A stretch of 64,000 nucleotides of DNA, from positions 1 through 64,000 of the forward strand of contig JAJZGI010000005.1 of the NCBI GenBank assembly GCA_021798575.1. The letters are read 5' to 3'. The DNA is from Pseudomonadota bacterium (GTDB lineage Bacteria > Pseudomonadota > Alphaproteobacteria > Acetobacterales > Acetobacteraceae). Under the pieces are notes generated by a model. It was not told the origin of the DNA. It saw only the letters and a program-made list of their open reading frames with translations, and searched no databases. Shown in pieces: positions 26,801-59,046 of this stretch. Each line of letters begins with the position of its first letter. Position 1 is the first letter of the stretch. Position numbers and translations under genes: made by a program.

Positions 26801-27355
26801 ATGACACACCAAGCAACATTCGCCGAGCCTGGGCTTACCGAGCCATCCATCCGCGCCGCTTTTCTGGGTGCCATGCGCTGCGCCCCCACTTCGGTGAGCG
26901 TCGTCACCACCAACGGCCCGGCCGGACGCTTTGGCGTGACGGTGAGCGCGGTGGCCTCCGTCTCGGCGGACCCGCCGATGCTGCTCGCCTGCATCAATCG
27001 GCGCAGCCCCGTGGGTGCCGCGGTGGCTCGGAACGGCAAATTCACGGTCAATCTGCTCTCCGAGCAGCAGCGTGACGTGGCGGATTGTTTCGCGGGCCGG
27101 TTCGCCGCCAGCGGCGGCCCGGCGTTCGATTTCGGGCAGAGCGATTGGGCCGATGACGCGCAGGATTCAGCGCCCCGCTTACAGGGCGCGGCGGCGAGCT
27201 TCCATTGCGCGGTGGCGCAGATGCATGAGGCGGGAACGCACATCATCCTCATCGGCCAGGTGCTGGCGGCGCTGAGCGGGCAGACACCCCCGCTCGCTTA
27301 TCTCCAGCAGGACTACGCGCGCGTGTTGAATTTCGAGCCCGGAATCGCGGCTTGA
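26801..27355 (+). CDS. Flavin reductase family protein (HpaC-like)
   Basis: FLGAMRCAPTSVSVVTTNGPAGRFGVTVSAVASVSADPPMLLACINRRSPV...NGKFTVNLLSEQQRDVADCFAG. Confidence 0.92.
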   Translation: MTHQATFAEPGLTEPSIRAAFLGAMRCAPTSVSVVTTNGPAGRFGVTVSAVASVSADPPMLLACINRRSPVGAAVARNGKFTVNLLSEQQRDVADCFAGRFAASGGPAFDFGQSDWADDAQDSAPRLQGAAASFHCAVAQMHEAGTHIILIGQVLAALSGQTPPLAYLQQDYARVLNFEPGIAA

Positions 27356-27356
27356 G

Positions 27357-27433
27357 CTAGTGTGGTGGTTCTGAAGTTCCCATGTACTCGCGGCAGCACC
27401 GTCTGGGAACTTCAGAACCGAAAACCACACTAG
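27357..27433 (+). repeat. Tandem-hairpin element copy 1, hairpin 1
   Basis: CTAGTGTGGT-GGTTCTGAAGTTCCCA / 21-nt loop / TGGGAACTTCAGAACC-gaaa-ACCACACTAG. Confidence 0.93.
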
Positions 27434-27446
27434 AATCATAGGTTTG

Positions 27447-27521
27447 CTAGTGTCCTACTCGATAGGTAAGTTCGTGAGGTGCTAGTTTCAACGACGACGA
27501 ACTTACCTATCGGGACACTAG
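27447..27521 (+). repeat. Tandem-hairpin element copy 1, hairpin 2
   Basis: CTAGTGTCC-tact-CGATAGGTAAGTTCGT / 21-nt loop / ACGAACTTACCTATCG-GGACACTAG. Confidence 0.93.
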
Positions 27522-27544: not shown

Positions 27545-29023
27545 ATGATTCGTACAGGGCAGCAATACCGGGATTCCATCCGCGATGGCAGGCGTGTGTG
27601 GATAAATGGGGAGGTGGTGCGGGACGTCACGACGCATCCGATGTTCAAACCGCTCGTGGATATCCGCGCGCGCATCTACGACATGCAGCACGACCCGCGC
27701 ACCGCGCCGGTGATGTGCTACAAGGACGAACTGGGCAACAGCTCCGCCATCGGGCTGAAGCTGCCATTCAAGCAGGAGGACTGGCACGCCAAGCGCGCCT
27801 CGACCGATGCGGTACTGGACGATATCGGCGGCATCGTCACCCGCGTGGGGGATGAGACCATCGGCGAGATGTGGTCGCTCTACGACGGCCAGGACGTACT
27901 GAACGAGGTCAACCCGCAATTCTCCGAGAACATCCGCCGCCATATCGACAAAGCCATCCGCGAGGATCCGTTCCATGTCTCGGCCAACACTGACCCGAAG
28001 GGTGACCGCTCCAAGCGCCCGCAGGACCAGGACCCGGACATGCTGCTGCATGTGGTGCGCGAGACCGACGCCGGCATCATCGTGCGCGGCGCGAAATATG
28101 AGACCGCAGCGGCCTACTCCAACCAGGCCTTCACCAAGCCGACCATCGCCAACTGGGGCAGCGCTGAACTCTCGGACTATGCGGTGGGCTTCGTGTGCGA
28201 TCTCGGCTCGCCGAACCTGAAATTCATCTGCCGTACCGGCTTTGCCGGGCGCGCGCCCGCGGCGGACTATCCGCTCTCGAACAAGTTCGACGAGATCGAT
28301 ACGCTGCTGATTTTTGATAATGTGCTGATCCCGTGGGAGAATGTGCTGTTCTACCGGCACACCAAGGCGGCCACCTTCATCCGCTCCACCCTGCACCGCT
28401 ACAGCGCCTTCGCCTTCGTGCAGCGGAACCTGAAGCTGGCGGACATGATGATCGGCGCGGCGCTGTTCAATGCGCGCCAGACGGGGTTGGATAAGCAACA
28501 GGCGGTGCAGGAGAAGCTGGCGCAACTTGCCTGCTACCGTGAGGGCATCAACGCGCATCTCACCGCCGCCATCGCCACCGCGCAAAAGAGCCCGGGCGGG
28601 CTGATGATGCCGAACCAGTCCCTGCTCTACACCGGGCGCGTGCTGGCCTGCTCGCAGCTGCACCAGATGATGCACATCACGCGCGAGCTCTGCGGCGGGC
28701 AGATCTGCGTCACCCCGGACGCCGCCGCCTTCGCCCATCCGGAGAGCGGGCCATGGCTCGAAAAATTCTATACCATCAACGACGAATGGCAGGCCGACGA
28801 CCGGCGCCGGCTGCTCGCCTTCGCGCGGGACCTGCTGAACTCGGACTATGCAGGCCACAGGCTCACCTTCCAGCTTTTCGCACAGTCTCCGCCGTTCGCG
28901 CATCTCGCCTCGGTCTATAATAATTTCGACTGGAGCGACGCGCTGCGCGTGGTGCATAAATCCGCCGGCCTGTCCGCCAATGTGCCCGGCGGCGCCGAGC
29001 CCGTGCGCGAAGCGGCGGAATAG
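27545..29023 (+). CDS. 4-hydroxyphenylacetate 3-hydroxylase (HpaB)-family flavin-dependent monooxygenase
   Basis: MIRTGQQYRDSIRDGRRVWINGEVVRDVTTHPMFKP N-terminus and ...MMHITRELCGGQICVTPD are HpaB-family; HpaC-like reductase adjacent. Confidence 0.92.
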   Translation: MIRTGQQYRDSIRDGRRVWINGEVVRDVTTHPMFKPLVDIRARIYDMQHDPRTAPVMCYKDELGNSSAIGLKLPFKQEDWHAKRASTDAVLDDIGGIVTRVGDETIGEMWSLYDGQDVLNEVNPQFSENIRRHIDKAIREDPFHVSANTDPKGDRSKRPQDQDPDMLLHVVRETDAGIIVRGAKYETAAAYSNQAFTKPTIANWGSAELSDYAVGFVCDLGSPNLKFICRTGFAGRAPAADYPLSNKFDEIDTLLIFDNVLIPWENVLFYRHTKAATFIRSTLHRYSAFAFVQRNLKLADMMIGAALFNARQTGLDKQQAVQEKLAQLACYREGINAHLTAAIATAQKSPGGLMMPNQSLLYTGRVLACSQLHQMMHITRELCGGQICVTPDAAAFAHPESGPWLEKFYTINDEWQADDRRRLLAFARDLLNSDYAGHRLTFQLFAQSPPFAHLASVYNNFDWSDALRVVHKSAGLSANVPGGAEPVREAAE

Positions 29024-55534: not shown

Positions 55535-55692
55535 AGGCTGTTTCAGAAGTGGATCGGGTCGGTCTGGCGGGTTTTTTTCGCGCCGGATTCGTCAGATTTT
55601 CGCCCCGATGAACCACATCGCGGCTTCAAATCTTCCTTTCCAGCACAAAAAATCCCTCCCCAGCCCTCAACCGCCCACTTTTGAAACAGCCT
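55535..55692. mobile_element. MITE-like element, 158 bp, 18-bp TIRs, 5-bp TSD TTAAG
   Basis: TIRs AGGCTGTTTCAGAAGTGG / CCACTTTTGAAACAGCCT; TTAAG at 55530-55534 and 55693-55697; excising element plus one TSD restores a perfect palindrome. Confidence 0.88.
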
Positions 55693-57117: not shown

Positions 57118-57193
57118 CTAGTGTGGTGGTTCTGAAGTTCCCATGCATTCGCGGCATCACCTTCTGGGAACTTCAGAACCAGAAACCACATTA
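57118..57193 (+). repeat. Tandem-hairpin element copy 2, hairpin 1
   Basis: CTAGTGTGGTGGTTCTGAAGTTCCCA / loop / TGGGAACTTCAGAACCagaaACCACATTAG. Confidence 0.93.
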
Positions 57194-57207
57194 GAATCAT
57201 AGGTTTG

Positions 57208-57282
57208 CTAGTGTCCTTATTGATGGGTAAGTTCGTAAGGTGCTGGTTTAAACGATGACGAACTTACCCATCAGGACACTAG
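57208..57282 (+). repeat. Tandem-hairpin element copy 2, hairpin 2
   Basis: CTAGTGTCCttatTGATGGGTAAGTTCGT / loop / ACGAACTTACCCATCAGGACACTAG; ends 3 bp before ATG 57286. Confidence 0.93.
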
Positions 57283-57285
57283 AAC

Positions 57286-59046
57286 ATGAAATCCTTCAGC
57301 CAGTTCATCATCGGCGCGCGCCAGGCCTGGGCCTTGACGAAGCCCTATTTCGTCTCGGAGGAGCGCTGGAGTGCGGGCCTGCTGCTCGGCACCATCATCG
57401 CGATGAACCTCTTCACCGTCTTCATCGGCGTGGTCGCGAACTACTGGAACCGGGATTTCTTCAACGCCATCCAGGCCTTCAACCGCAAGAGCATCTTCAC
57501 CCTGCTGCTCACCTACCAGCCGGGGCCGCTGTTCAACGGCTTCATGCCGGGGCTCATCTCCATCGTCATCGTGGCGGTGCTGATCTTTGTCTATTCCACC
57601 TATCTCCAGCAGATGCTGCAAATCCGCTGGCGGCGCTGGATGACGCAGCACTATGTCGGCAACTGGCTGGCGGACCGCGCCTACTACAACATCAGCCTGA
57701 GCCAGACGCACGGGTTGGGTGTGGACAACCCGGACCAGCGCATCGCCGATGACCTGCGTCTGTTCACCATGAACATGCTCAACACCGGCATTGGTTTCAT
57801 CAGCAACCTCGTCAATCTGTTCAGCTTCGTCTTCGTGCTCTACGCTGTCTCTGGCTCCATCCGGCTGTTCGGCATCACCATCCCCGGCTACATGCTCTGG
57901 GTCGCGGTGCTCTATTCCGCCTTCGGCACCTATTTCACCTATAAAATCGGTCGCAAGCTGATCCTGCTCTCCTACAACCAGCAGCGGTTTGAGGCGGATT
58001 TCCGCTATAATCTGGTGCGCGTGCGGGACAATCCGGAGGCCATCGCGCTCTACGCCGGGGAGGATGACGAAAAACTCGGCCTAACCGACCGTTTCGAAGC
58101 CATCTTCAACAATTTCTGGGCGATCATGCGGCGCACCAAGGCGCTGAATTTCTTCACCACCAGCTTCGGGCAGATCGCGGGCTATTTTCCGCTCATCGTC
58201 GCCCTGCCGCGCTATCTCTCGCGCGCCATCGGCCTGGGTGGCCTCACCCAGATCCAGGACGCCTTCAGCCAAGTGCAGGGCTCGCTCTCCTGGTTCGTTG
58301 GCGCGTTTTCGGACTCTTCCACCAACCAGGATCTGGTGAACCTGCGCGCCACCATCGTGCGGTTGCACGGCTTCACCGAGGCAGTGTCAGCCGCCCGCGC
58401 GGCCTCGGCCAACGGGCCGCAGCTTGGCGCGGGCGGTGACGCGCTGCGCTTCAACAACCTTACGCTCAGCCTGCCCGATGGCCGCAAACTGCTGGAGAAC
58501 GCCAGCCTCACCCTCCCGGCCGGGCAGAATGTGGTGCTCACCGGCGCGTCTGGCATGGGTAAATCCACGCTCTTCCGCGCCATCGCGGGCATCTGGCCGT
58601 TTGGCGAGGGTGCGGTGAGCCGACCGACCGGCAGCGCCATGTTCCTGCCGCAGCGGCCCTATTTCCCGCTCGGCACGCTGCGCCGCACCATCACCTATCC
58701 GGGCAACGACGCGGATATCCCCGAGGCGGCGATCATCAGCGCCCTGGATGAGGTCGGGCTGCAAGCCCTCATCCCCCGGATGAACGATGTCGAGAACTGG
58801 GGCCTCATCCTCTCCGGCGGCGAGCAGCAGCGCCTGGCGATCACCCGCGCGCTGATCACCCGGCCGGACTGGCTCTTCCTGGACGAAGCCACCTCCGCGC
58901 TGGATACGCCGATGGCGGCCCAGATGCAGGAGATGCTCACCCGGCAACTGCCCAACACGACGATGGTGTCGATCAGCCATCGCGACCTCACAAACCCGGC
59001 AGAGCGCCACCTGGCGCTGGCGGGCGGCGCGCTGGCAGACGTTTAA
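57286..59046 (+). CDS. ABC transporter ATP-binding/permease protein, SbmA/BacA-like
   Basis: N-terminal TM domain (YWNRDFFNAIQAFNRKSIFTLLL; RWRRWMTQHYVGNWLADRAYYNI), Walker A GASGMGKST, signature LSGGEQQRLAITRAL. Confidence 0.92.
   Translation: MKSFSQFIIGARQAWALTKPYFVSEERWSAGLLLGTIIAMNLFTVFIGVVANYWNRDFFNAIQAFNRKSIFTLLLTYQPGPLFNGFMPGLISIVIVAVLIFVYSTYLQQMLQIRWRRWMTQHYVGNWLADRAYYNISLSQTHGLGVDNPDQRIADDLRLFTMNMLNTGIGFISNLVNLFSFVFVLYAVSGSIRLFGITIPGYMLWVAVLYSAFGTYFTYKIGRKLILLSYNQQRFEADFRYNLVRVRDNPEAIALYAGEDDEKLGLTDRFEAIFNNFWAIMRRTKALNFFTTSFGQIAGYFPLIVALPRYLSRAIGLGGLTQIQDAFSQVQGSLSWFVGAFSDSSTNQDLVNLRATIVRLHGFTEAVSAARAASANGPQLGAGGDALRFNNLTLSLPDGRKLLENASLTLPAGQNVVLTGASGMGKSTLFRAIAGIWPFGEGAVSRPTGSAMFLPQRPYFPLGTLRRTITYPGNDADIPEAAIISALDEVGLQALIPRMNDVENWGLILSGGEQQRLAITRALITRPDWLFLDEATSALDTPMAAQMQEMLTRQLPNTTMVSISHRDLTNPAERHLALAGGALADV

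Follow-up and report, generated by a model that had tools for sequence, protein, structure and literature searches.

Recurrence and architecture of a double hairpin

What is the 165-bp double hairpin that lies between a flavin reductase gene and an hpaB gene in contig JAJZGI010000005.1 of an Acetobacteraceae genome (positions 1 to 64,000; this whole 64,000-nt stretch is referred to as the window), and how did it come to stand there? We conclude that it is probably a non-autonomous unit of about 165 bp, resembling both miniature inverted-repeat transposable elements (MITEs) and the hairpin pairs known as REPINs (from repetitive extragenic palindromic sequences, REPs), which inserts at CTAG and is built as a hairpin, a putative site for integration host factor (IHF) and an inverted hairpin, with IHF presumably bringing the two halves together and an enzyme supplied in trans presumably moving the whole. 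The architecture, the mobility, the CTAG target, the copies in different genera, the IHF-like linker with its polar A-tract and the maintenance of the palindromes at the level of DNA carry this conclusion. The parts of both copies in the window are as follows.

27357-27521: complete element copy 1, 165 bp (hairpin 1, linker, hairpin 2), with CTAG at both outer ends
27357-27360: left CTAG foot (target/duplication)
27357-27433: hairpin 1, with an outer stem of 10 bp (27357-27366 with 27424-27433)
27367-27382 with 27404-27419: inner stem of hairpin 1, 16 bp
27383-27403: loop of hairpin 1, 21 nt
27420-27423: bulge of hairpin 1, GAAA, 4 nt, A-rich, on the 3' side, which is the linker side
27434-27446, + strand: linker AATCATAGGTTTG, 13 nt, joining both hairpins
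27447-27521: hairpin 2, inverted relative of hairpin 1, with an outer stem of 9 bp (27447-27455 with 27513-27521)
27456-27459: bulge of hairpin 2, TACT, 4 nt, on the 5' side, which is the linker side
27460-27475 with 27497-27512: inner stem of hairpin 2, 16 bp
27476-27496: loop of hairpin 2, 21 nt
27518-27521: right CTAG foot (target/duplication)
57118-57282: copy 2, complete element (hairpin 1 57118-57194, linker 57195-57207, hairpin 2 57208-57282)

The two-hairpin architecture given in the initial annotation, with its stems, one-sided 4-nt bulges and 21-nt loops, was reproduced to the base, and the second 165-bp copy at 57118 was confirmed: its roughly 17 differences fit the 90% identity to copy 1 obtained with BLAST across all 165 bases. 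Folded as DNA, copy 1 reaches -52.3 kcal/mol, compared with -18.5 +/- 2.9 kcal/mol for dinucleotide shuffles (z = -11.5; none of 200 shuffles reached the observed value). The heptamer CTAGTGT occurs seven times in the window, each time at a hairpin foot of copy 1 or copy 2 (shuffle mean 1.15).

The initial annotation took hairpin 2 for an inverted relative of hairpin 1, and three observations concur with this: a match on the reverse strand, the side on which the bulge lies, and a directional loop motif. In both hairpins this motif runs from the outer towards the inner arm (GCGAGT 19 versus 0, CGAGTC 20 versus 0), and hairpin 2 is therefore to be regarded as an inverted relative of hairpin 1.

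Distribution of the family

What the initial annotation overlooked were the conserved linker and the additional copies; the idea that nothing might exist beyond the two copies in the window can be set aside. In the source genome (G000; 2.37 Mb in 95 contigs) there are five full copies, as well as a solo hairpin 2 (C4:24818-24893) and fragments. A linker-pattern search of 299 genomes from the same family as the source, with the pattern read backwards as control, found the element in two, G000 and G169; G169 gave 16 matches (control 0). A covariance model was built from 18 copies; it scored copy 1 at 178.9 bits and, of 385 genomes of the class, identified 21 as carriers. With lighter filtering this model gave 99 matches in G169, both strands and fragments counted, corresponding to about 40 full copies. 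In a sample of the phylum all ten other carriers belong to this same class. The outer-arm pattern alone, searched against GTDB contigs, retrieved at least 119 stretches, and the matches listed are nearly all from Alphaproteobacteria, Hyphomicrobiales foremost, followed by Caulobacteraceae, Parvularculaceae, Rhodospirillales-type genera and Acidiphilium, with a few labelled Proteobacteria only. An outer-arm match that forms a hairpin was also seen in a Conexibacter (actinobacterial) metagenome-assembled genome (L236), and reflects either transfer beyond Alphaproteobacteria or a mis-binned contig.

Taken together, the loci yielded 134 distinct double hairpins, nearly all from Alphaproteobacteria. 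Their total length ranges from 160 to 171 bp with hairpins of about 76 bp each, the linker measures 13 nt in 103 of the 134, and 127 of the 134 have both bulges on the linker-side arms (85/89 in the set found by the outer-arm pattern only); a bulge is missing or a hairpin flipped in a few copies (L005, L040). Pairing is preserved while sequence changes: 23 of 51 stem pairs are altered on both sides (7.2 in shuffles), and sliding the stem partners against each other drops pairing from 97% to 27-44%. The plan is unchanged even in the copy on a Roseibium plasmid, where the stems are largely different; this Roseibium/Labrenzia megaplasmid locus is the only plasmid occurrence. The family is described neither in Rfam, whose curated covariance models gave no match to the element, nor in the literature searched.

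Two observations adjoin the family. Double hairpins of about 132 bp with tiny loops (L065, L066 and L067, in G622, G353 and G569) gave weak covariance-model matches and possibly form a second subfamily, and no more than 1 kb from an element copy in Afipia massiliensis there are a speF leader and an ar45 small RNA (L188, 3231-3651).

Mobility and target site

That the element is mobile DNA, inserting at CTAG and leaving CTAG on both sides, is seen in the loci L048 and L049. Their flanks are 93% identical, and L049 holds one extra complete element as a 161-bp insertion, placed in a CTAG inside a resident copy, with CTAG present on both sides afterwards. Nested or tandem copies with one common CTAG were found at L031, L166, L104, L259, L282, L197 and L244; unrelated loci within one genome carry copies that are 92-98% identical; carriers are scattered patchily among the genomes of the family (2 of 299) and of the class (21 of 385); and in a genome of the same genus (G270) the flavin reductase and hpaB genes are adjacent and align through the site at 72% identity, with no element between them. 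As MITEs generally are, the element is short, non-coding, multi-copy and mobile with a duplicated target; no enzyme acting on it in trans was found.

At the outer end that the search pattern leaves free, the foot reads CTAG in 60 of 77 cases, the outer C being kept in 72/77 and the outer G in 77/77, whereas the next base outside is random; a bare TA target is therefore excluded. This bears on the suggestion of the initial annotation that the hairpins are a pair of TA-flanked MITEs of the IS630/Tc1 type, and on the reading that each of them would move alone. The TA within CTAG and the existence of solo hairpins such as the one in G000 speak for such a mode, but the duplicated target is CTAG, conserved to its outer C and G, and the L049 insertion comprises the whole pair with its linker, so that this explanation is largely refuted and can hardly be upheld.

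Elements of 75 bp that consist of the left and right outer arms only, with CTAG or a near variant at both ends, occur at four loci of G437 (L111, L112, L162, L163), and further mini elements at L225, L240 and L252. They are a natural product of deletion between direct-repeat arms, and give a hint that it is the outer arms that count most.

The linker

The IHF consensus is WATCAANNNNTTR, and IHF sites such as lambda H' carry an A-tract about 8 nt upstream. The linker consensus of the family, AATCATANNNTTG, aligns in register with WATCAANNNNTTR, and the linker of copy 1 agrees with it at eight of nine specified positions, the A-tract in the bulge lying 9-10 nt upstream. As loci retrieved by the linker pattern would make the argument circular, only the outer-arm-pattern set (47 distinct 13-nt linkers) was used for it. 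Within this set 23 of 47 linkers score at least 8/9 against the consensus, compared with 0.33% of shuffled linkers; with all 13-nt linkers pooled, 60 of 103 do so. By its sequence, the linker thus qualifies as an IHF-like site.

The surroundings of the core are polar in the same sense. On the WATCAA side the bulge is 75% A, with a run of three A in 37/47 linkers, whereas the mirror-image T-run on the downstream side is found in only 9/47. Since the A-rich bulge lies on the side that an IHF site requires, the best reading of the 4-nt bulge is that an A-tract has been inserted into the arm on the linker side. All six carriers examined give a match to the IHF alpha model, which clears the curated cut-off in four of them and falls 1 bit short of it in G000 and G169. 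A GANTC site, the recognition sequence of CcrM, overlaps the junction of CTAG and linker in 33 of the 47 distinct linkers.

DNA or RNA

A structured RNA, such as an operon-internal leader or a processing or termination element, would also be marked by strong hairpins, and copy 1 lies between co-directional flavin reductase and hpaB genes, so that it would be transcribed if these share a transcript. Selection on RNA would favour G.U pairs, yet stem mismatches on the IHF-oriented strand comprise 43 G.T and 37 A.C (P = 0.58), and for elements lying between co-directional open reading frames (ORFs) the mRNA strand shows 16 G.T and 20 A.C. With no G.U excess on either, the palindromes are therefore kept as DNA and not as RNA. 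The orientation of the element relative to genes is random (16 versus 14), every type of gene gap is used (tandem 46, divergent 30, convergent 17, and 8 inside ORFs, by crude ORF calling), the divergent gaps as readily as the convergent ones, and Rfam offers no match. The structured 5' leader proposed in the initial annotation is accordingly disfavoured, and we regard an RNA role of any of these kinds as very improbable.

Genomic context

The genes flanking copy 1 are arranged as follows.

26801-27355, + strand: flavin reductase gene (PF01613), whose stop codon ends 1 nt before copy 1
27545-29023, + strand: HpaB-type 4-hydroxyphenylacetate 3-hydroxylase gene (PF11794, PF03241), starting 23 nt past copy 1

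In several copies the neighbouring gene takes its stop codon from the TAG of the outer CTAG, for example at L025 (2946-2949), at L045 (4346-4349) and at L204 (joined flanks); crude ORF calling shows this at 18 of about 100 element edges. Copy 2 stops 3 nt short of the ATG with which an SbmA/BacA-like ABC transporter gene begins, and any ribosome-binding site of this gene would need to come from the hairpin end of copy 2, AGGACACTAG (57271-57288). Elsewhere in the window, an 18-nt inverted repeat (55535-55552 and 55675-55692; 94% complementary, 122 nt apart) is unrelated to the double hairpins.

Search for the mobilising enzyme

No transposase-bearing version of the element was found across 124 loci, nor at unpaired arms. 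The unpaired outer arms, considered as possible ends of an autonomous element, were rejected as truncated or mini copies. A second candidate came from L045, L048 and L049, where solitary phage-type terminase cassettes (an Sf6-like TerS or DUF5681-like small ORF, a TerL-like ORF, and one or two endonuclease VII genes) stand beside double hairpins or are bracketed by them in contexts of bacterial type. It was likewise rejected as an autonomous element, a relative of this terminase being present in only 2 of 21 carriers and in neither G000 nor G169; the three IMG/VR contigs found first had been called viral because of their terminase, and the association is therefore one of ascertainment.

A MITE of a DDE-type insertion sequence with a 4-bp CTAG duplication, having either IS481-like TGT...ACA ends or the YTAR targets of IS701 and IS427, is the alternative to which we give some weight, although we think it doubtful; the outer arms would then be double-stranded terminal inverted repeats (TIRs) and the hairpins a by-product. 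IS481 targets CTAG. The duplicated CTAG, an element body that starts with TGT and ends with ACA, the 24-bp TIR-like sequence of the outer arms and the mini copies retaining these arms alone would all be accounted for. However, no insertion sequence with these ends was found: among the IS481-type loci inspected none has them, the one clear IS481-like TIR (G307, L129) being different, and the IS481 domain rve_3 is absent from 3 of 11 carriers (G000, G312, G629), the IS701 domain DDE_5 from 11 of 12. Nor would such an origin account for the conservation of loops, inner arms and linker.

A member of the REP class and of the bacterial interspersed mosaic elements (BIMEs), moved by a REP-associated tyrosine transposase (RAYT; a Y1 HUH transposase) for which the hairpins would be recognised in single-stranded form, we consider unlikely. 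An inverted pair with irregular stems and an IHF site between them is found in BIME-1 (PMC2817692), the foot is a tetranucleotide, and TIR-flanked tyrosine transposases with repeated TIR families have been described (PMC3733652). Against this, the Y1 domain PF01797 is absent from 10 of 15 carriers, G000 and G169 included, and none of its six matches has these hairpins on its flanks; the hairpins measure about 76 bp instead of 20-40 bp, CTAG stands at both feet of each, and neither a GTAG nor a CGTC tag is present. Among the three candidates of the initial annotation the REPIN/BIME-like pair nevertheless proved the best: the inversion, the mobility and the IHF-like site between the hairpins were borne out, membership in the REP/RAYT class was not.

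The missing transposase-bearing version and the lack of the PF01797, rve_3 and DDE_5 domains, each in several carriers, weigh against our own reading of a CTAG-inserting hairpin pair as well, together with three further points: Alphaproteobacteria were over-sampled, since the queries derive from them; the stem statistics rest on copies chosen by a palindrome finder; and 70% of linkers have T at the sixth position of the IHF core, where the E. coli consensus has A, which is a constant deviation of the alphaproteobacterial sites.

Proposed mechanism and significance

For the double hairpin as a unit inserting at CTAG, we propose that IHF would bind the 13-bp linker together with the A-tract formed by the linker-side bulge, and fold the DNA back so that both inverted hairpin units come to lie side by side. 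An enzyme acting in trans may then recognise either the two outer arms (CTAGTGTSSYGATTYNGAAGTTCG) or hairpins that have been extruded in single-stranded or cruciform form, and could carry the complete unit to a different CTAG. The additional A-tract disrupts the inner-arm spacing and may thereby stop single hairpins from moving alone. More speculatively, and in our view improbably, the enzyme might be an unrecognised kind of recombinase acting at CTAG on ends in hairpin form, whether cruciform or single-stranded, with IHF as the synapsing factor, possibly gated by CcrM methylation of GAATC at the junction of CTAG and IHF core.

Structured mobile DNA of this family is widespread in Alphaproteobacteria; Bradyrhizobium, Afipia, Nitrobacter and Caulobacter are among the genera that carry it. 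The copies spread IHF-like sites and strong palindromes into promoters and operons across many genomes, and the family offers a clean system for studying how hairpin pairs move, which part IHF plays, and control by cell-cycle DNA methylation.

Comparison with known systems

As far as the comparisons were carried, the element works like BIME-1 and like a CTAG-targeting MITE, and lacks the defining features of REP/RAYT, IS630, IS481 and IS701 elements. Within Alphaproteobacteria, the closest described repeats are the CIR elements of Caulobacter and Brucella, to the extent that they are characterised in PMC2229807 (citing Chen and Shapiro 2003). According to that account they measure about 110 bp and share with the present family two inverted-repeat arms and a linker, a terminal TA, GANTC (CcrM) sites, an intergenic location and alphaproteobacterial hosts. 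Their GANTC lies at a loop, whereas here it lies at the CTAG/linker junction of an element of about 165 bp; the two may be distantly related. Br-REP1 and Br-REP2 of Bradyrhizobium (PMC5082802) are likewise palindromic intergenic repeats in overlapping genera, but their published consensus sequences are unrelated and of about 20-40 nt. Correia/NEMIS elements are MITEs with an IHF motif (PMC2229807), formed however by a single long stem with a TA duplication in place of two separate hairpins and CTAG. With REPINs and RAYTs, the GTAG/CGTC REPs and TIRtrons (PMC3733652), the family has in common non-autonomous inverted hairpin pairs of patchy occurrence, here in up to tens of copies, but it differs in lacking the GTAG/CGTC tag and an associated Y1 gene and in its far longer hairpins.

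The nearest counterpart in plan is BIME-1 of E. coli (RIB/RIP, REP-IHF-REP), in which oppositely oriented hairpins surround an IHF-binding sequence (PMC2817692). Both are repeated, mostly intergenic, inverted hairpin pairs around an IHF or IHF-like site, which in our case is assigned from sequence only. In BIME-1 the two inverted units are REPs; here the pair is inverted, but its units, with about 76 bp, 16-bp inner stems, 21-nt loops and no GTAG tag, are not, and the element duplicates CTAG, resides in Alphaproteobacteria and has no RAYT in most carriers. Size, sequence, target and enzyme differ although the plan is shared, which suggests convergence, either independent or very deep, on a single design.
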